Positions 40,252 through 53,001 of a DNA stretch of 64,000 bases are shown here, in pieces. A program made the position numbers and the translations under genes. The stretch is from Methanohalophilus profundi. GTDB taxonomy: Archaea; Halobacteriota; Methanosarcinia; Methanosarcinales; Methanosarcinaceae. The first letter of the stretch is position 1; each line of letters begins with the position of its first letter. The stretch covers positions 1,522,750 to 1,586,749 of the forward strand of contig NZ_QBKB01000002.1 of assembly GCF_004137855.1 (NCBI RefSeq), written 5' to 3'. A model generated the notes under the pieces. The model made no database searches, had not been told where the DNA came from, and was given only the letters and a program-made list of their open reading frames with translations.

Positions 40252-41454
40252 TCAGGACCGGGCAATTTCACCCAGTTTTATTCCCAGTTGCCTGCAACCC
40301 TCTAAATCTTCCTTTTCAGGTCTGAATTTCACTTTAAAAGGGTCTTCCACAAATTCCATTTTGGTATTCTTGAGAGCTTCTTCCATCTGCCTGATTGCAC
40401 CGCCACCCCAGCCATAGGATCCGAAGAATGATACCTTTTTGTCTTTGGGGCGCAAACCTTTCAGGTACGTCAGGAAACCACCCATTGTAAAGAACATCCC
40501 ATTGTGCATTGTGGGGGATCCAAGGGCAAAGACCCGGCATTCCATTAATTCTTTGATGAGCATGCTCCAGTCATTTTTGCGCAGGTGGAACAAGACAACC
40601 TCGGTCCCTGAGGCCCGCACTCCTTCTGCAATTGCTTTTGCCATCATCTCTGTGCTGGCCCACATTGAATCATAAATCACAAGCACCTTTTGCTCACTTG
40701 TCCCGGAAGCCCATTTTGCATAGGCATCGATTATCCGTTGCGGATCATTGCGCCAGATAACACCGTGGGACGGCGCGATCATGTCGATCTGTAATCCTAG
40801 TTTCCCGACAGTTTCAAGATGTTTGAGTATTCGGGATTTAAAGGGCATCAGTATATTGGCAAAATATATGGCGGCATCTTCCATGACGTCTTCTACCTGG
40901 TCATCGAACCTCCTGGAGGTGGCAATATGCTGGCCAAATGCATCATTGGAAAAGAGAATGTGATCCTCTTTGAGATAAGTCTGCATGCTGTCAGGCCAGT
41001 GGAGCATGACCGCTTCAATAAACATCAGGGTCCTTTTGCCGGTGTTTAATTCGTCCCCCGTTTTCACGGTCTCAAAGTTCCAGCCACTACACCCGGATTC
41101 GGCATAATATTCATTGAGTCCGGTTTTGCCCCTTTCGGTGGCAAATATTTTGGCATTCGGAGCTACTTCCAGGACACGTGGCAGGGCACTGGAATGGTCC
41201 ATCTCCACATGATTGGCTACTATATAATCGATCTTTGCGGGGTCCACTATCCTGCTGATCCTTTCGATCATCTCGTCTGCAAAGGATGCTTTTACAGTGT
41301 CGATGAGGGTGATCTTTTCATCTACTATGAGGTAAGCATTATATGTGCCACCCCGGGGTGTTTCATAACCGTGGAAATCACGCAGGTTCCAGTCGATTAC
41401 GCCAACCCAGTAAACCCCTTTGGCAATTTCAAGTGGCTCTTCTGGAGTATCCAC
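40252..41454 (-). CDS. fprA: F420H2 oxidase / flavodiiron protein FprA
   Basis: 400 residues from GTG 41454 (AGGTGA five bases upstream). FprA reduces oxygen to water with F420H2. The N-terminal metallo-beta-lactamase domain has the diiron motif ANHVEMDHSSALP and HWPDSM; the C-terminal flavodoxin domain starts near residue 250 (VLVIYDSMWASTEMMA) with GSYGWGGGAIRQ. It is next to a rubrerythrin-like gene, a common oxygen-defence pair in methanogens. Confidence 0.95.
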   Translation of the reverse strand: MDTPEEPLEIAKGVYWVGVIDWNLRDFHGYETPRGGTYNAYLIVDEKITLIDTVKASFADEMIERISRIVDPAKIDYIVANHVEMDHSSALPRVLEVAPNAKIFATERGKTGLNEYYAESGCSGWNFETVKTGDELNTGKRTLMFIEAVMLHWPDSMQTYLKEDHILFSNDAFGQHIATSRRFDDQVEDVMEDAAIYFANILMPFKSRILKHLETVGKLGLQIDMIAPSHGVIWRNDPQRIIDAYAKWASGTSEQKVLVIYDSMWASTEMMAKAIAEGVRASGTEVVLFHLRKNDWSMLIKELMECRVFALGSPTMHNGMFFTMGGFLTYLKGLRPKDKKVSFFGSYGWGGGAIRQMEEALKNTKMEFVEDPFKVKFRPEKEDLEGCRQLGIKLGEIARS

Positions 41455-41471
41455 AAAATTCACCTGGTAAT

Positions 41472-41959
41472 TTATGTCTGCATCCTGAAACCGGTAGCTT
41501 CATCCAGCAAACCATCAATGAGCTCATAATGGCCCCGCTCAACTTTGGCAATCTTGCTGAAAAATTCCTGTTCTTCCTTTTCAGTGGCTTTCTTTTCGAG
41601 TTCAAGATAGAAATATTCACTCTTCCTTTCAAAGCGCAGTGTACCAAGCATAATACCAATCTCTTCCAGATTGTTTTCTGTGAATTCCACGTTCAAAGAT
41701 CCACGGAAATCAGGGATATTGGATTCAGGTATTTCAACTTCTTTTCCTTCAAGGAATTTGTGAAGGTACTGAGCATGGTGTTTTTCTTCCTCGGCCAGGA
41801 CTCATAGGTTTTCTTTGCCCCGGGATTGCCGGTAAGATTTGCTCTTTCAAGATAGAAATCATGCCCCTGGTCCTCCAGGGCAATCGCCATTTCCACTGCT
41901 TCTTCAACCGTACTAATGTTCTCGAGCTCTATATCTACATATTTGAGTATATCTTGCAA
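41472..41959 (-). pseudogene. Rubrerythrin-like diiron protein, frameshifted
   Basis: The N-terminal half (VDIELENISTVEEAVEMAIA, LEDQGHDFYLERA) leaves frame after KKTYE. One added base near 41799-41802 restores FLAEEEKHHAQYLHKFLEGK and the downstream part to ERGHYELIDGLLDE. The repaired protein is about 163 residues with ExxH motifs (EDQGH, EEKHH, ERGHYE). I place the start at TTG 41959 (MQDILKYVDIE), with GGGAG upstream. It is in line with fprA, separated by 17 bases. Confidence 0.8.
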
Positions 41960-42009
41960 TTTATACAACTCCCACAATCAGTAGCTAGTATATTTGACAA
42001 TATGAGTAA

Positions 42010-42649: not shown

Positions 42650-43108
42650 TTGAGTAAAAGAGGATATTATATAGGGCTTTTTACAGGCATGTATCTTTTC
42701 TTCAAAGAAGACCTGGGGTTTTTGAGGAACCTGACCGCAGAAGTTTTCTCGTTTAGCATGAGCCTTCTGGGAGTCACAAATTCGGTTAATGAAAATGTAT
42801 TACATTTTGCCAATGGAATAACAGCAATGAAAGTCGTGGACGAATGTACCGGCATCTACGAAGTACTTGTCTATTCTGGCTGTGTGCTGGCATATTCCAC
42901 AACTTATCAGAAAAAACTTATGGGAATAGCCTTTGGTGTACCAGCAATACTTGGTATTAACATGGTGAGGTTGGTATGTCTTGGATTTGTAGGGCTCTGG
43001 TTTCCTGAAATATTTGACTATGTCCATTATTACTTCTGGCAGGTCACGTTGATTATAATTATAGTACTGGTTGTTCTGATATGGATCGAGAAAGTAGTGA
43101 AACGATGA
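42650..43108 (+). CDS. Archaeosortase/exosortase-family protein
   Basis: 152 residues and about four or five membrane helices. The catalytic pattern is VDECTGIYEVLVYSG (Cys), then GINMVRLVCLG (Arg) and FDYVHYYFWQ (His), the triad of exosortase/archaeosortase enzymes. They cleave C-terminal sorting tails and attach surface proteins to lipid. A protein with a PGF-CTERM tail is at 49.3-50.7 kb, though archaeosortase A, the usual PGF partner, is normally longer. The start is TTG 42650; the RBS is weak. Confidence 0.85.
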   Translation: MSKRGYYIGLFTGMYLFFKEDLGFLRNLTAEVFSFSMSLLGVTNSVNENVLHFANGITAMKVVDECTGIYEVLVYSGCVLAYSTTYQKKLMGIAFGVPAILGINMVRLVCLGFVGLWFPEIFDYVHYYFWQVTLIIIIVLVVLIWIEKVVKR

Positions 43109-44765: not shown

Positions 44766-45569
44766 ATGCCTTATCAAATAAGGAAAATATTTGGTGTGGA
44801 TTTTAGCGGGTCTAAAAAAGCCTGTAATAAAATATGGGTAAGTGAAGGCATCGTTCACGATAACTTCCTCAAAATCCACACCTGTCGTCCTGCTCACTTT
44901 TTTGCTGAAAGCCATGATACTCAGAGCTGTATTACTGCTCTTTATGGCATGATCGCCAGAGAAAAATATGCTATTTTTGGAATGGATTTTCCTTTTGCAC
45001 TCCCATCTTCCCTTACAGAAGAAAACAACTGGAAGGATTTCATAATCAATTTCCCTCTTAAACATGCGTCTGCAGAAAGTTTCAGGGATTACTATCGCCA
45101 GAAAACAGATGGAAAAGAATTCAAACGTAAAAAGGAAAATGAAAAAGGCGCACCATTTGCTGCATACAATCTCTGGTTGTACAAACAGACCTTTCATGGT
45201 ATCTCAAGAATAATTCATCCCCTTGTAAGGAATAACCTTGCCTGTATTCTCCCTATGCAAACCCCTGATCCTGAAAATCCCTGGGTAATTGAGATATGTC
45301 CGGCCTGCACTCTTAAAGAAAAGGGTCTATATATGCCGTATAAAGGAAAAAAGAGTGACAGAGAAACTAATAGGAAAATGATTGTGGATAAGTTAGAACA
45401 ATTCAATATTATGCTTGATGATGAAATAAAAGATATATGTATTTCAAACACTCAAGGAGACGCTCTGGACAGTATTCTGGCAGCGTATGCCGTATTTAGG
45501 AATATGCAAACCCTGGAAGGAAAAAATCCGGATGAACTTGAAAAAAGAGAAAGGGATGTTTATTATTAA
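44766..45569 (+). CDS. DUF429 (RNase H-like) protein
   Basis: 267 residues. The opening KIFGVDFSGSKKACNKIW, FGMDFPFALPS and the C-terminal TQGDALDSILAAYAVF are the three acidic motifs of the predicted RNase H-like nuclease family DUF429. No substrate is known. The stop overlaps that of afpA on the other strand by four bases. Confidence 0.75.
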   Translation: MPYQIRKIFGVDFSGSKKACNKIWVSEGIVHDNFLKIHTCRPAHFFAESHDTQSCITALYGMIAREKYAIFGMDFPFALPSSLTEENNWKDFIINFPLKHASAESFRDYYRQKTDGKEFKRKKENEKGAPFAAYNLWLYKQTFHGISRIIHPLVRNNLACILPMQTPDPENPWVIEICPACTLKEKGLYMPYKGKKSDRETNRKMIVDKLEQFNIMLDDEIKDICISNTQGDALDSILAAYAVFRNMQTLEGKNPDELEKRERDVYY

Positions 45570-46117
45570 TCCCCTTTTGGTTCTATATTCAACAGTTCAT
45601 AAATATCATCAGGTTTTGTCAATATGTGCATGTTTTCCATTTCAGCCAGTTTTTCTGAATTGGTAACATCAATATCCCGCATCTTCAACTTCATTTTTCT
45701 TCCACTGGGTGCATATGTGGTAACATCGCCACGCACCTGATCAACAGGCAGGACATAAATTGGTGTTTGCCCCTTTGCTGTCTGGGCCACCACATTTGTT
45801 ACAAGAGTATCGGCAATACCGTGTGCTATCTTGGCAACAGAATTGGCTGTGGCTGGTGCGATTATTAAAGCATCGTAGTGACCAACCTGCAATGGGCCGG
45901 CAATAAAAGGTGAGTTGGGACCCGAATCTGTTTTGAAGTTCGAGAAATCCTTCTGTATGTTATCCCACATGCGATACCACTTCATTACAGTCTCCCCTTC
46001 TCTTGAAAGAAATACCATAAACTCAATATCGGTTTTTTTCTTAATGTCTACCATTATGTCATACGTCTCTTTTATAAGGTCACCTGAGCCTGTAATTCCC
46101 CACGCGATTCTTTTCAT
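45566..46117 (-). CDS. afpA: Archaeoflavoprotein AfpA
   Basis: 183 residues: RIAWGITGSGDLIKETYDIM, LSREGETVMKWYRMWD and IIAPATANSVAKIAHGIADTLV are typical of this FMN protein of the dihydromethanopterin-reductase-like flavoprotein fold. It accepts electrons from ferredoxin and iron-sulfur flavoproteins. It is the last gene of the minus-strand set ferredoxin-isf-oxidoreductase-afpA. AGGAGTGATAAT precedes the ATG. Confidence 0.92.
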   Translation of the reverse strand: MKRIAWGITGSGDLIKETYDIMVDIKKKTDIEFMVFLSREGETVMKWYRMWDNIQKDFSNFKTDSGPNSPFIAGPLQVGHYDALIIAPATANSVAKIAHGIADTLVTNVVAQTAKGQTPIYVLPVDQVRGDVTTYAPSGRKMKLKMRDIDVTNSEKLAEMENMHILTKPDDIYELLNIEPKGD

Positions 46118-46134: not shown

Positions 46135-46833
46135 TTAATAACCTGTAAATAGTTCATATTTGACTTTTGCTTTATCGATAGCCATTTCATATAGTATTTC
46201 CCTGACAGCCTTCACCATTGTCGGGGGCCCACATAAATAGAACATACGATCCCTGTAATCCGGAATTTCACGCAATATCATGCTTTCACAGACACGCTCC
46301 CTGCAACCTGCCCAATCATTGGAAGCCCTGGTTAATGTATGTACAACTTTCAGGTTAGGATTGTGTTTTTGCATAATTTCCAGTTCATCTTCAAAGGCAA
46401 TATCCTGCTCGATTTTGTTACTGGATATCATTACAATATCTGTATCCATGCCTTTATCTGTACAATAACGCGAAATACTAATCATCGGAGTAATGCCAAT
46501 ACCACCACTAATAAGGGCAATTTTGTCATACTCTCCTGTATAGGTCATTTTACCGAAGGGGCCTTCAATGCCTATCGTGTCACCCGGTTGAAGTAAAGAT
46601 AGTGCATTGGAAAATTCATGGCCGGTCAATTTCTTGGTGAATTCTATATATTCCTTATTGGAGGGGGCACTTGAGATGGTAAAGGGCTTGCGTACCTTAT
46701 TGCCGTTGATTTCCAGTTCTACCATAATATACTGGCCTGCAAGATACTCAAAACCATCAGGCCGGGGAAAAAGGAAACTTAGCACATCTTCTGTTCTGGG
46801 AATAGTTTCCATCAGCCTTGCATCAAATTGCAA
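46135..46833 (-). CDS. FAD/NAD-dependent ferredoxin reductase-like oxidoreductase
   Basis: 232 residues from TTG 46833 with AAAGGAG eight bases upstream. The longer frame (to 46917) only reads the left end of the inserted IS. FAD site: MVELEINGNKVRKPFTISS; NAD site: KIALISGGIGITPMISI and the C-terminal MFYLCGPPTMVKAVRE. It should move electrons between NAD(P)H and a flavoprotein or ferredoxin. The IS sits just upstream of its ribosome site. Confidence 0.88.
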   Translation of the reverse strand: MQFDARLMETIPRTEDVLSFLFPRPDGFEYLAGQYIMVELEINGNKVRKPFTISSAPSNKEYIEFTKKLTGHEFSNALSLLQPGDTIGIEGPFGKMTYTGEYDKIALISGGIGITPMISISRYCTDKGMDTDIVMISSNKIEQDIAFEDELEIMQKHNPNLKVVHTLTRASNDWAGCRERVCESMILREIPDYRDRMFYLCGPPTMVKAVREILYEMAIDKAKVKYELFTGY

Positions 46834-46849: not shown

Positions 46850-47293
46850 TCATGATAGAGTAAGAAGACCACCGTTTTCAAACGGTGATGAATTACACCC
46901 TCTATTGTTATTACCATCTATGTATTTCTTGATCGTTTCAGCAGATACTTGACCGTGTGTTCCTATGTAGTAACTTGGAGACCACAAATGCTTTCCCCAA
47001 AATTCTTTATTTCGTAGTTCAGGGAATTTTTGAAATACTCTTTTTGTAGTAACGCCTTTCATAATTTTGACAATATCTGTAGGTGCTATGAATGGAGGTG
47101 CATTTATGAAAAGATGGATATGTTCAGGCATAACTTCCAGTTCAAGTATTTCCCATTCTTTAGATTCGGCAATTGTTCTTATCTGGTCATCAAGAAATTG
47201 CTTTAATTCATCATTCATAACCTGTTTTTGATATTTCGTACACCATACAATATGATAATTAATTTCATATACAGCAGAACTTGAATAAGACAT
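46850..47293 (-). CDS. tnpA: IS200 family transposase TnpA (Y1 HUH)
   Basis: 147 residues. HUH motif in EHIHLF, nucleophilic tyrosine in IKKYIDGNN, and YEINYHIVWCTKYQKQVM at the N-terminus. It cuts and joins single-stranded element ends. The C-terminal 18 residues read into the left end, and the stop TGA uses the last T of the TTTAT target (46850), so insertion supplies the stop codon. The frame is intact. Confidence 0.93.
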   Translation of the reverse strand: MSYSSSAVYEINYHIVWCTKYQKQVMNDELKQFLDDQIRTIAESKEWEILELEVMPEHIHLFINAPPFIAPTDIVKIMKGVTTKRVFQKFPELRNKEFWGKHLWSPSYYIGTHGQVSAETIKKYIDGNNNRGCNSSPFENGGLLTLS

Positions 47294-47295
47294 AT

Positions 47296-47340
47296 TTACC
47301 TATAGGTTCGAAAAGTATTTAAATATTCCTTACCTATAGG
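47296..47340. promoter_or_regulatory. shared tnpA/tnpB promoter with paired boxes
   Basis: In the 53 bases between the divergent starts, TTACCTATAGG occurs twice (47296-47306 and 47330-47340), 34 bases apart. The A/T palindrome TATTTAAATA lies between. The core CCTATAGG is itself palindromic. It looks like a two-way TATA element with flanking operator sites. Confidence 0.45.
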
Positions 47341-47346
47341 CATATA

Positions 47347-48427
47347 ATGCAAAATCATATAAGTTTAGGTTATATCCTACAAAACAACAAGAAATCAAAT
47401 TGAATAAAACTCTTGATGTTTGTAGATATATCTATAATGAATTTCTTGCAGACCGTAGAAATGCATACGAAAGATGTAATTAGGGAATATCTACAATGGA
47501 ACAGTTGTATCAGGTTCAATACCTTAAATTTGATACGATAGTACATTCACAAGTTAAACAGGATATAATCAGGAGATTAGGAAAATCTTTTGATAATTTC
47601 TTTAGACGATGTAAGAAAGGAGAGACAAAAGTAGGCTATCCACGTTTCAAAGGTAAAAATAGATATAACAGTTTTACTTATCCTCAATCTGGTTTTAGTA
47701 TTTCTGGAAAGAAATTGAATTTATCGAAAATTGGAGAAATTAAGATAGTTCAACATCGGGAAATTGATGGTAAAATTAAAACTTGTACCATTCGTAGAGA
47801 CGGAAAACAATGGTATGCAACATTTCTGTTGTAATTAAAAACAATGTAAAACCTGTAGAACCTATTGCCTTCATTGGAATTGATGTTGGACTTAATTCCA
47901 TTGTGACGTTAAGTGATGGTGCACAAGTCAATTCTCCAAAATATTATTACAATACAGAAATAAAATTAAAAAAGCAACAACGTAAACTTAGTAGAAAAAA
48001 GAAGTTTTCTAATAACTGGAAAAAACAATGTGATAAAGTAAACAAATTGCATCAAAAAATACGTAAACAAAGAAATGATTTTAACCATAAGTTAAGTAGA
48101 GAATTGATTAATGTTTACGATTGTATAGTTTTTGAAGATTTGAATATAAAGAATATGGTGAAAAATTCAAGACTTTCAAAATCTATACATGATGCATCAT
48201 GGAGTAATCTAATTCAGTTTACACAATACAAAGCGGAAGAAGCTGGTAAGTTTGTAAAATTAGTAAACCCATGTAATACATCTCAAATCTGCAGCAATTG
48301 TGGTCAAAACGTAAAAAAATCATTAGCAACGAGGACACATAATTGCCCCCATTGTGGATTAATTATTGACCGCGACCATAATGCTGCAATTAATATTCTT
48401 AATCGTGCTGTAGGGACTACAGTTTAA
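47347..48427 (+). pseudogene. tnpB: TnpB RNA-guided nuclease, two single-base breaks and one TAG
   Basis: The start is ATG 47347. Adding an A to A4 at 47351-47354 gives MQKSYKFRLYPTKQQEIKLN; the frame then meets TAG at 47481-47483 (after YERCN) and continues GISTMEQLYQ. A second lost base in TTT 47823-47825 separates WYATF from SVVIKNNVKP. The RuvC residues are intact: IGIDVGLNS (D), VFEDLNIKN (E) and IDRDHNAAIN (D). The zinc finger is CSNCGQ...CPHCG. The repaired protein is about 360 residues. If the deletions are errors, only the TAG remains, which this lineage might read as pyrrolysine. Confidence 0.85.
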
Positions 48428-48518
48428 GCCTGTGGAATTGAACTAATAGGTTCAATAATGAAGCAGGAAGCCACCCTATTCATAGGGTGGTAGTTCACTG
48501 TTCCAGTCTTTTCATTTG
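48428..48518 (+). ncRNA. predicted TnpB guide RNA (reRNA): scaffold end plus guide
   Basis: The scaffold includes GCAGGAAG and the 9-bp hairpin at 48471-48490 and ends in TAGTTCAC at 48498. The guide would begin at 48499 (TGTTCCAGTCTTTTCATTTG), which is the 3' end of isf. With TTTAT as target motif it matches the empty allele. The RNA 5' end, probably inside tnpB, is not defined. Confidence 0.55.
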
Positions 48519-49118
48519 CTTGGATGTTTCAATAAGTTTTTTCATTGTACGGCGCAGACTGCGTAGGCCTTCCTCATCTTCATCTATTCCTTCTGCCCCT
48601 TTATCCTTGGACCACAGCGTACCTCCCAGATTTGACCCGAAGGAGCCTCCGGCAACAGGGAACATTTCACTGATGACATAAAAATTCAATATGGTCTGGA
48701 GGGCAGGCTCCTGGCCTCCCACACGGTCCCCCCCATCTGCCAGTGCAGCACCCACTTTATTTTGGAATGCCTTGGGATTTGCCGCTACAACCGCCCTGCA
48801 CCTGTCCATTATGGTTTTGGTCTGTGCACTGATATTTCCCTGGTATACCGGTGTCCCTATTATCCAGGCATCCGCCCAGAGCATTTTTTCATACAGGTCT
48901 GATATGTCATCTTTGTGTATACATCCCTGTTTGGTCCTTATGCAATGATCGCAATGGATACAGAATTTCAATTCTTTCCCGCTTGCAGAAAAATACTCCA
49001 CTTCAGCACTGTATTTTTCCTTTGCATAATCCAGTGCATATTGCACGGCACGGGCAGTTGCTTTTTTGCGAGGACTGCCCGATATTCCAAGTATTTTCAC
49101 AATGTCCTTGTCGGACAT
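48495..49118 (-). CDS. isf: Iron-sulfur flavoprotein (Isf family)
   Basis: 207 residues from ATG 49118 with AAAGGAG upstream. The flavodoxin-like fold binds FMN (ILGISGSPRKKATAR, TPVYQGNISAQTKTIMDR). The compact cysteine motif CIHCDHCIRTKQGC holds the 4Fe-4S cluster of Isf, which takes electrons from ferredoxin and can reduce oxygen or peroxide. The IS insertion changed its stop from TAA to TGA without altering the protein. Ferredoxin is 15 bases upstream. Confidence 0.92.
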   Translation of the reverse strand: MSDKDIVKILGISGSPRKKATARAVQYALDYAKEKYSAEVEYFSASGKELKFCIHCDHCIRTKQGCIHKDDISDLYEKMLWADAWIIGTPVYQGNISAQTKTIMDRCRAVVAANPKAFQNKVGAALADGGDRVGGQEPALQTILNFYVISEMFPVAGGSFGSNLGGTLWSKDKGAEGIDEDEEGLRSLRRTMKKLIETSKQMKRLEQ

Positions 49119-49133
49119 CAATTCACACTCCTT

Positions 49134-49325
49134 TCACTCAAGTACAATGGCATCAGCCGGACAGGCATCCACACACAGCTCACATTCTATGCAGTCATCA
49201 GGCCGTGAAACTACTGACTTTGTATCCCCGTTGGAATCTTCTTTCAAATCAAAAACTTCTGTGGGGCATACCTCGGCACATTCGCCGCTTCCTATACATT
49301 TATCTTTGTCTACAACTGGTGGCAT
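49134..49325 (-). CDS. Two-cluster ferredoxin with one altered cysteine
   Basis: 63 residues. The second cluster motif is CIECELCVDACP, a complete 4Fe-4S site. The first is CIGSGECAEVCP, where the usual second Cys is Ser, so it likely binds a 3Fe-4S cluster or a labile 4Fe-4S cluster. An extended loop (KEDSNGDTKSVVSRPDD) lies between them. It is the natural donor to Isf downstream. AGGAAGA precedes the ATG. Confidence 0.9.
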   Translation of the reverse strand: MPPVVDKDKCIGSGECAEVCPTEVFDLKEDSNGDTKSVVSRPDDCIECELCVDACPADAIVLE

Positions 49326-49336
49326 ATTCTTCCTCC

Positions 49337-50707
49337 TTACATATTCCTTCTAAACAAATAAATTGTAAATAATGCAATCAAGCCAACAATACTTCCAAAT
49401 CCTGGTGTTCCTTCTGACTCTACCTCACCGTTTATTCCGCCTTTAACGGACTCCATCTCTACAATCGGAACTTCATACTCTCCTCCAAATAGTTCATCTA
49501 TAAGTGACTGGGGAGCAGACCTGTAGAGCAATTTCGTATCCACAATAATGGGGTCGACTACACCTTCTGGTACAGTAAAATTATGAACTTCAATGGCAGT
49601 TGATTCAGGCGCAATCCTGTTATCAGATATCACATCTGTAACTTCCCATAATTTCATAGTAGGATTGCCGTCAGAATCGGAATATACGGCCCAGTAAATA
49701 GTTCCATTCTCGATATTGCCATCCTCATCCAGATTTCCTGAACTGTAAATTTCGCGTCCCTGGCTGTCTTTTATATCTACCTGGGTCCACATTTGCCTGG
49801 CTTCAGTAAGTCCTGTAGGCAAATTATGACCTGCCCCGGAATTCGTAATTGACACTTCAATGGCAACTTCTTCGCCTGGTTGCGCATTTTCGGGAATGTT
49901 TACTTCTAGTGTAGCCGCTTCCTGAAGTCTTTCGATTGCCATTTCTTTATGATCATCCTCGCCCAGTATTCCTGTAACAAAAACATTGGCTCCTGCGAAG
50001 TTGTGCACTGATATATGGTCTCTTTTGGGTGCACCTGATCCAGCACGCCCGGGATTTGCCTCAAATTCAGTAATTCCAGGTGTCATGTGGCAATCCTGGC
50101 ATTGGACCTCTTCTTCAGCATAGGGTCCTTCGCTCCATGCCTGATAGGTGTCATCCAGCACTACACCGGATGTTGGGTGGGTGATCTGGTGGCACATTCC
50201 ACAATACTCTGATTTTGTATAGAATTCACTGTATTGAGATTCGTGGAACGCAGACTCAGAATCATCGAATGGGCCATATTTGGTCTCAGAAGGAGCCACC
50301 GAATATCCTCCATTGCCTATCTCAGAGGATTCCTTAACACTGTGGCAAAAATCACAGCCCACTCCTTCATCAGCCTCTTCACTTATATGGGGGTTATCTA
50401 TAGGGGGGACCTGCCCCGAAGTCACACTAACAGGTATGTGACAGCGCGTACAGAAAACATCCAGAGAGCCATTTGTCTCTTCACTTGCAAGTTTTAGTTC
50501 TTCCTGGTAAAATGGGTCATCAAAAGCATGATAATGCATACTACCTTCCCACTGGCTGGTCGTGATGGCATGGCATCTGTTGCATGTAGAATACGAAGTA
50601 AAATCTTCATGCGATAAGGTATCTGCTTCAATGGGGGAAGCATCTGCTACAACCCCAGCACAGGCAAATAAAAATGTCAAAATGATAAATATGGATATAT
50701 TTTTCAC
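49337..50707 (-). CDS. Pentaheme cytochrome c with PGF-CTERM tail
   Basis: 456 residues from GTG 50707 (AGGAGGGG upstream). There is a signal peptide (IFIILTFLFACAGVVADA), then five c-type heme sites: CNRCH, CTRCH, CDFCH, CGMCH and CQDCH at residues 42, 86, 118, 169 and 203. The C-terminal half is a beta domain without hemes (EVSITNSGAGHNLPTGLTEA). The end TPGFGSIVGLIALFTIYLFRR is a PGF-CTERM surface-sorting tail. It is therefore an extracellular electron carrier, comparable in role to multiheme cytochromes of Methanosarcina. The ferredoxin gene follows 11 bases later. Confidence 0.92.
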   Translation of the reverse strand: MKNISIFIILTFLFACAGVVADASPIEADTLSHEDFTSYSTCNRCHAITTSQWEGSMHYHAFDDPFYQEELKLASEETNGSLDVFCTRCHIPVSVTSGQVPPIDNPHISEEADEGVGCDFCHSVKESSEIGNGGYSVAPSETKYGPFDDSESAFHESQYSEFYTKSEYCGMCHQITHPTSGVVLDDTYQAWSEGPYAEEEVQCQDCHMTPGITEFEANPGRAGSGAPKRDHISVHNFAGANVFVTGILGEDDHKEMAIERLQEAATLEVNIPENAQPGEEVAIEVSITNSGAGHNLPTGLTEARQMWTQVDIKDSQGREIYSSGNLDEDGNIENGTIYWAVYSDSDGNPTMKLWEVTDVISDNRIAPESTAIEVHNFTVPEGVVDPIIVDTKLLYRSAPQSLIDELFGGEYEVPIVEMESVKGGINGEVESEGTPGFGSIVGLIALFTIYLFRRNM

Positions 50708-50774: not shown

Positions 50775-51124
50775 TTATTCCTGCAGTAACTTTAGTGCTT
50801 CCCTGCATGCTGCAACTGCAGGTGCACCTGAAGTGATAGAGATCACTTCCATTGTTTCCATTATTTCCTCTGCTGTGGCGCCATTTTCAGAGCGCTCTTC
50901 ATCTGGGAGACCGTACAGGCCTCACACTGTTTGGAGGCAACGACTGCCAGTGCCATCAATATCTTGTACTTGGCAGGTATTGCACCGTCTGACAACAATT
51001 TGTCATGACATCTCCTGTACTTATTAACGAAGTTGGGATCGATTTCCTTCAGTGTGTGGAGAATATTCGGGGCAAACCCCATCTTATTCTCTATATCCTG
51101 TACTACTTTCTCATGTTCTGCCAT
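50775..51124 (-). pseudogene. Carboxymuconolactone decarboxylase/AhpD-like protein, frameshifted
   Basis: From ATG 51124 (AGGAGG upstream) the frame reads MAEHEKVVQDIENKMGFAPN and [17 protein letters not shown] (CxxC) before breaking at KMAPQQ. Adding one base at T4 50884-50887 continues [20 protein letters not shown] to a stop at 50775, about 117 residues. The fold and CxxC suggest a thiol peroxidase or reductase. It precedes the pentaheme gene on the same strand. Confidence 0.85.
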
Positions 51125-51146: not shown

Positions 51147-51365
51147 TTAATCAAAGGAATCTTCTATCGTGTTATCAAAACAGTAGTTGCACATAAAGTG
51201 GGGAAGGCCCTTATGAAGGCGTTTGACCTCGGGTGGTTTTCCCACTGAAACCTGTAGTTTTACTTCTTTAGAATGATCCATACACAGCCCTTTCCCGCAT
51301 ACAATACATACTGCAGCGGCTTCTACCTCTGTCCCTGCTTCAGCACAGTCATAACATTTCATCAT
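51147..51365 (-). CDS. DUF2180 zinc-ribbon-like protein, copy 1
   Basis: 72 residues from ATG 51365 (GAGGTGAAT upstream). MMKCYDCAEAG, CIVCGKGLCMDH and a last CNYC give three Cys pairs and a His. The family is known as DUF2180 and is common in archaea; its role is unknown. The neighbour upstream is a paralogue. Confidence 0.8.
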   Translation of the reverse strand: MMKCYDCAEAGTEVEAAAVCIVCGKGLCMDHSKEVKLQVSVGKPPEVKRLHKGLPHFMCNYCFDNTIEDSFD

Positions 51366-51375
51366 GGTATTCACC

Positions 51376-51612
51376 TCAGTAATTTTCCTTCAAAGCCTCA
51401 TGACATGGTTTGCAAAGTATTTTGAGTAGAGGTTGTATGTCCTTTAACTCACAGGCATCTCCCATGCACTTAAGCCTCACTTCGTATTCACCTTCCAATA
51501 CGGGAATTTTTTCTCTTACAAGATGGTCCATACACACGCCTCTGCCACATATGATGCAAATACCGACTGTGTCAGTAGTTTTATTTTCTTTTGCACATTC
51601 AAAACATTTCAT
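51376..51612 (-). CDS. DUF2180 zinc-ribbon-like protein, copy 2
   Basis: 78 residues: MKCFECAKENK, CIICGRGVCMDHL, KCMGDAC and CKPCHEAL. It has the same CxxC pattern as the gene 11 bases downstream, so a tandem duplication. A GGGAGTGAAT-type site precedes the ATG. Confidence 0.8.
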   Translation of the reverse strand: MKCFECAKENKTTDTVGICIICGRGVCMDHLVREKIPVLEGEYEVRLKCMGDACELKDIQPLLKILCKPCHEALKENY

Positions 51613-51660: not shown

Positions 51661-51783
51661 TTACTCCACGAGTTCCATTTCTTCCCCGCAGCAAATAAGT
51701 ACTCCGCCGCCAACTTCAGTGACTTCAACTTCGTTGCCACAGATATTACAAATGTATTTTTCACCTACTTTTTGGACTCCCAT
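51661..51783 (-). CDS. Desulforedoxin-like protein (40 aa)
   Basis: A very short gene: 40 residues opening [20 protein letters not shown] and continuing [22 protein letters not shown] and ICCGEEM match desulforedoxin or the N-terminal domain of desulfoferrodoxin, with four cysteines binding one iron. AAGGAG precedes ATG 51783. It starts the minus-strand set desulforedoxin-DUF2180 x2-AhpD-cytochrome-ferredoxin-isf. A TATA-like tract lies upstream at about 51805-51815. Confidence 0.85.

Positions 51784-51961: not shown

Positions 51962-53000
<1,039 letters not shown>

Positions 53001-53001
<1 letters not shown>

Follow-up and report, generated by a model that had tools for sequence, protein, structure and literature searches.

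Predicted surface pentaheme cytochrome within an oxidative-stress gene cluster of Methanohalophilus profundi

We analysed a 64,000-nucleotide stretch of the Methanohalophilus profundi genome (the window; assembly GCF_004137855.1, contig NZ_QBKB01000002.1, positions 1,522,750 to 1,586,749) and found that it carries an intact and conserved gene for a PHC-type pentaheme c-type cytochrome, which lies within the oxygen and oxidative-stress gene cluster of the Methanosarcinaceae. The cytochrome most likely contributes to oxygen defence at the cell surface, by a putative transfer of electrons or reduction of an oxidant. The genes that we take to be its orthologs, MA3739 of Methanosarcina acetivorans and MM_0633 of M. 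mazei, have repeatedly been named as candidates for extracellular electron transfer (EET) on account of their multiheme nature and the response to AQDS; their deletion gave no phenotype in the reported growth and electron-transfer assays, and the family-wide gene context groups them with oxygen-defence genes.

Results

The cytochrome gene and its product

The genes considered here are located in the window as follows.

51661-51783, minus strand: desulforedoxin-like protein of 40 aa, first gene of the cluster (Desulfoferrodoxin N-terminal domain PF06397, 53 bits)
51379-51612, minus strand: second DUF2180 protein
51147-51365, minus strand: DUF2180 small cysteine-rich protein
50775-51124, minus strand: CMD/AhpD-like protein, with a 1-bp deletion near 50884-50888 relative to four congeners
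49337-50707, minus strand: pentaheme c-type cytochrome with signal peptide, five CxxCH motifs, C-terminal beta domain and PGF-CTERM tail
49134-49325, minus strand: 2[4Fe-4S] ferredoxin, about 12 bp past the cytochrome gene; missing from the clusters of some relatives
48495-49121, minus strand: iron-sulfur flavoprotein Isf (FMN_red fold, CX2CX2CX6C)
46851-48498, TnpA on the minus and TnpB on the plus strand: IS200/IS605-type element between isf and the reductase gene
46135-46833, minus strand: FAD/NAD(P)-binding reductase of the FNR type, with its own RBS and a TTG start
45566-46117, minus strand: archaeoflavoprotein AfpA (TIGR02699, 262.9 bits)
41429-41977, minus strand: rubrerythrin-like gene in two frames, homolog of the gene preceding FprA in M. 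acetivorans
40252-41463, minus strand: FprA, a flavodiiron protein of the F420H2 oxidase type, 56% identical to FprA of the M. acetivorans operon

The cytochrome gene encodes 456 aa, starts with GTG behind the ribosome-binding site GGAGG and specifies a hydrophobic N-terminus. Its CxxCH motifs lie at residues 42, 86, 118, 169 and 203, all five within residues 42-207, and account for 10 of the 10 cysteines outside the signal peptide. Every full-length relative examined retains all five hemes, and dN/dS values of 0.09-0.22 against five congeners show purifying selection. Pfam Cytochrome_C554 matches the protein above its cut-off (38.5 bits).

The C-terminal tail, TPGFGSIVGLIALFTIYLFRRNM, was accepted by the Pfam PGF-CTERM model PF18204 (26.0 bits, cut-off 18.8) and scored below the cut-off of the stricter NCBIfam model TIGR04126 (16.9 vs 24.5 bits). 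A PGF motif, a transmembrane segment and a basic end are present, and the genome carries an archaeosortase A gene at another place (TIGR04125, 304.7 bits), which places the protein in the PGF-CTERM class, weakly so by TIGR04126. Most archaeal orthologs likewise have a P-G-[FLIV]-like motif with a hydrophobic segment and a basic C-terminus, with only a few of these tails recognised by the PGF-CTERM profile models. We infer that the cytochrome is anchored outside the membrane via archaeosortase A. The initial annotation, which had recorded the signal peptide, the five CxxCH sites and the tail and had placed the protein outside the cell, is borne out on the sequence features, and the surface location is supported by the predicted tail; the M. 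mazei five-heme protein is reported from a surface/membrane fraction (PMC6962339).

Fold, family and heme ligation

In an AlphaFold2 model (pLDDT 87.6; 47-sequence alignment), the sole full-length match in the PDB was the pentaheme cytochrome c552 of Thermochromatium tepidum (5ZE8; E 4e-21, TM 0.63/0.74), which the profile search also recovered at E 2e-31. Profile searches further matched the selenoprotein cytochrome MccSep and cytochrome c554. The protein combines five CxxCH motifs, a c554-like N-terminal part, a C-terminal Ig-like beta domain and the 5ZE8 fold, the features of the superfamily of PHC, c552 and ExtKL-like cytochromes. In fold the protein belongs with pentaheme cytochromes such as Thermochromatium c552 and ExtKL, which places it in the PHC kind known in cable bacteria and Geobacter (PMC11976967).

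NCBIfam NF040886 (ExtKL) matched all 47 aligned relatives, and the 53.4 bits of the window protein against the equivalog cut-off of 250 make it a relative of ExtKL and not a member. The seven-heme MmcA profile TIGR04314 gave no match to the window protein, and NrfA nitrite reductase was rejected at 12.3 bits against a cut-off of 692.5, all five motifs being CxxCH and none CxxCK. In a quick tree, with distant rows on long branches, the set closest to the archaeal cytochromes was a planctomycete group that includes the anammox genus Brocadia (38-40% identity). No stress genes were seen beside the homolog at one Brocadia locus. As a separate observation, loci of the Methanosarcina group in some genomes (L063-L067, L104) contain an open frame of about 790-800 aa that is weakly similar to the heme part of the cytochrome.

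Four histidines outside the motifs (58, 155, 235 and 294) are conserved family-wide, and the archaeal/planctomycete clade retains a fifth one, H231. PHC relatives have been modelled with an open heme (PMC11976967). Given H231, an open heme in the window cytochrome is possible and not more than that, and all five hemes may have bis-His ligation.

Other multiheme cytochromes of the genome

The genome that holds the window (1.83 Mb, 90% complete) also encodes an MmcA homolog (TIGR04314, 875.5 bits) that adjoins rnf genes elsewhere. Another multiheme cytochrome is encoded at 240316-241608 of contig C2 (4317-5609 of locus L114). It has 430 aa, up to eight CxxCH motifs and a PGF-like tail, adjoins a gene set resembling fumarate reductase and is not the rnf-linked MmcA.

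Neighbouring genes in the window

The downstream ferredoxin, Isf, NAD-linked reductase and AfpA named in the initial annotation were recovered by coordinates and profile matches, the annotated interval 49134-50707 itself including the ferredoxin gene. That gene list was correct as far as it went and had missed the desulforedoxin domain, the two DUF2180 genes and the CMD gene upstream as well as FprA. Together, the upstream genes and FprA decide the interpretation toward oxygen defence.

FprA lies about 4 kb downstream of the cluster, past plus-strand genes, with a nitroreductase and the rubrerythrin-like gene on its own strand. The intervening plus-strand genes encode a 267-aa protein, presumably DUF429, an inositol-phosphate synthase and further ORFs. 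One of these is an archaeosortase B (42650-43108, plus strand; TIGR04144, 295 bits).

The insertion of the IS element falls exactly between the stop codon of isf and the reductase gene's ribosome-binding site and leaves the coding sequences intact. The element is absent at this junction in all five congeners aligned across it, and its position makes co-transcription in this strain uncertain. The stretch separating the cytochrome gene from the CMD gene holds a hairpin, AAGGAGGC..GCCTCCTT, which is similar in most congeners checked and not in the more distant genome G005; the 91-nt region folds only modestly better than shuffled sequences (z -2.4) and has no T run. A scan for sigma-70 promoters and terminators gave nothing above shuffled sequences.

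Single-base frameshifts or two-frame genes occur at several places in this assembly, namely in the CMD gene, in the rubrerythrin-like gene and in the trpE region (around 56970). The gene mer (methylenetetrahydromethanopterin reductase, 52016-53001) is also split, by a 1-bp deletion around 52710 relative to four congeners. Because mer is a core gene of methanogenesis, a sequencing or assembly error is the likely cause of its split, and with several such frameshifts, apparently broken genes in this assembly call for caution.

Conservation of the cluster across relatives

The locus was compared in about 50 relatives, and the cytochrome is present at 38 loci at the level of the order Methanosarcinales; the counts given here are descriptive, as the loci share phylogeny and are not independent. 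In the Methanosarcinaceae the order is desulforedoxin, DUF2180, DUF2180, CMD, (superoxide reductase), cytochrome, (TusA, DsrE, NifS, NifU-TrxR), (ferredoxin), isf, (reductase), (rubrerythrin), afpA, (rubrerythrin-like, FprA), where the bracketed genes and desulforedoxin vary by lineage. Almost always, where the contig extends that far, the cluster is divergent from mer-fpoF. CMD is present at 38 of 38 cytochrome loci and superoxide reductase (SOR) at 14 of 38, and FprA occurs at most of those with sequence reaching far enough. Directly upstream of the cytochrome gene in some Methanosarcina genomes (L106, L110), SOR has extra cysteines; the methanoferrodoxin of M. mazei is a superoxide reductase with an Fe-S cluster (cited in PMC4338226). 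In a few lineages (loci L069, L070, L071, L085 and L092), TusA-, DsrE-, NifS- and NifU-thioredoxin-reductase-like genes follow the cytochrome gene; these names were read from the sequences without profile matches, and the genes would suggest Fe-S repair within the cluster.

The M. acetivorans locus contains desulforedoxin, two DUF2180 genes, CMD, SOR, cytochrome, isf, afpA, rubrerythrin and FprA. It corresponds to MA4664/MA3734-3743, which has been described as a putative oxidative stress operon of this species, with MA3743, the FpaA/FprA homolog, as its last gene (PMC3729527). The window cluster has the same core of genes in the same order. At the Methanohalophilus locus, the SOR gene is not present and FprA and the rubrerythrin-like gene are shifted behind the plus-strand genes. 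By gene content and order, we regard the window cluster as the oxidative-stress locus of the Methanosarcinaceae in the reduced form that Methanohalophilus has.

The cytochrome is missing from eight Methanosarcina loci (L124-L131), which keep isf, afpA and rubrerythrin and likewise lack CMD, desulforedoxin and SOR. Cytochrome-less loci from two other genera (L133, L134) retain desulforedoxin, DUF2180, CMD, isf, reductase and afpA, and some cytochrome-less relatives retain ferredoxin and reductase. Because isf and afpA are kept where the cytochrome is absent, the flavoproteins do not depend on it.

Orthologs in Methanosarcina

Counting back from MA3743 in the operon, the window cytochrome corresponds to MA3739, which we accordingly identify by synteny as its M. 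acetivorans ortholog. MA3739 is the only five-heme cytochrome gene of M. acetivorans (PMC6703419), and we found one homolog of the window cytochrome in that genome. MM_0633 is very probably the same gene in M. mazei: it is the one multiheme cytochrome gene of that species (PMC6962339), for which reason the M. mazei-type loci were taken as MM_0633. The MA and MM numbers were assigned by synteny and literature, not from annotation.

Discussion

Whether the cytochrome takes part in oxygen defence at the surface, with electrons supplied from the membrane side, is, in our estimate, an evenly balanced question, and we hold any particular chemistry to be less probable than that role. In such a role, electrons would reach the cytochrome from the methanophenazine pool or MmcA, not directly from cytoplasmic ferredoxin, Isf or AfpA, and would pass either to a partner at the surface or to an external oxidant (O2, superoxide/peroxide or NO); oxidants inside the cell would be left to Isf, FprA, rubrerythrin and SOR. 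With the cytochrome fed from the membrane and the flavoproteins acting inside, the neighbours would form a stress regulon instead of a single wire leading from ferredoxin to the surface. SOR, FprA and the rubrerythrins are expected to be cytoplasmic, so they are linked to the surface cytochrome by gene neighbourhood only, and an oxygen response of the neighbouring genes is suggested by published annotation and known family functions. Of the two options in the initial annotation, an oxygen-scavenging branch thus comes closer, in view of the oxidative-stress cluster and the nearby FprA; the reduction of an oxidant by the cytochrome stays putative.

The other option was a ferredoxin-to-surface route, in which ferredoxin, Isf, the reductase and AfpA feed the cytochrome for EET to humics, Fe(III) or a partner cell. 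The surface anchor and the distant similarity to Geobacter ExtKL fit such a route, as do the 4.1-fold upregulation of MA3739 in AQDS-grown cells (PMC6703419) and the finding of the MM_0633 protein in a surface/membrane fraction, together with the suggestion that flavoproteins and iron-sulfur flavoproteins join it in a complex (PMC6962339). However, AQDS reduction (PMC6703419) and methane formation from Fe(0) (PMC10989991) were unaffected by deletion of MA3739, as were DIET, cathode uptake and growth on methanol and acetate by deletion of MM_0633 (PMC6962339). The other cytochromes are likewise stated not to have been required for electron uptake from Geobacter (PMC10989991), and the M. mazei five-heme gene was down on ferrihydrite (PMC11921357). 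The persistence of isf and afpA in cytochrome-less relatives and the separate MmcA beside rnf in this genome also speak against the route, which is largely refuted for Methanosarcina and which we consider very improbable overall. Because MA3739 was up on AQDS and also, by 80%, in an mmcA deletion strain (PMC11024163), it may have a secondary or redundant part in exporting electrons, and with both proteins facing outside, the cytochrome could export electrons only when MmcA is absent or overloaded. Yet a single mmcA deletion already inhibits AQDS reduction (PMC6703419), so the back-up could not be full, and in M. mazei no multiheme cytochrome gene exists besides the five-heme one (PMC6962339), which means that the role could not be general; we judge a back-up function to be rather unlikely.

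Catalytic reduction of a nitrogen or sulfur oxide (NO, nitrite, hydroxylamine or sulfite) by the cytochrome, in a cluster directed against both nitrosative and oxidative stress, would agree with the cytochrome c554 domain, the weak similarity to NrfH/NrfA profiles and the nearest bacterial relatives in planctomycetes including Brocadia. NO is a further possible substrate of flavodiiron proteins of the FprA type. All hemes being of the CxxCH type, the NrfA score far below its cut-off and the possible bis-His ligation of all five hemes argue against catalysis of this kind, and we consider it improbable. Returning to oxygen defence, the MM_0633 knockout was described in a Bonn thesis whose title refers to substrate conversion and protection from oxygen radicals (cited in PMC6962339); in the literature we found no report of an oxygen phenotype of five-heme mutants or of MA3739 expression under O2. 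In its most specific form, which we offer as an unlikely proposal, the cytochrome would be an outward-facing heme-based oxidant reductase drawing on the methanophenazine pool. It would form the extracytoplasmic arm of oxygen defence in methanogens, based on a pentaheme cytochrome of the PHC type that anammox planctomycetes also have.

Among known systems, the closest are MA3739 and MM_0633, with one homolog per genome, 48-49% identity, five CxxCH motifs, the same type of tail and the same position in the cluster. The Methanosarcina cluster differs in having SOR upstream and rubrerythrin and FprA directly after afpA and in lacking ferredoxin and reductase, whereas Methanohalophilus has its SOR genes elsewhere than in the cytochrome cluster. 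MmcA is likewise a surface multiheme cytochrome of the Methanosarcinales and is present in this genome too, but it belongs to a heptaheme family related to tetrathionate reductases (PMC11024163), separate from the pentaheme cytochrome, and is needed in M. acetivorans as the route for EET. The T. tepidum c552 matches in fold over its whole length, but with 19% identity in the structural alignment, and is a purple-bacterial protein, not an archaeal surface-anchored one. With the PHC family, represented by Geobacter ExtKL, Gsu2801 and the sPHC of cable bacteria (PMC11976967), the window cytochrome shares the pentaheme domain and the C-terminal Ig-like domain, but it has an archaeal surface anchor, no porin partner and a score below the 250-bit cut-off.
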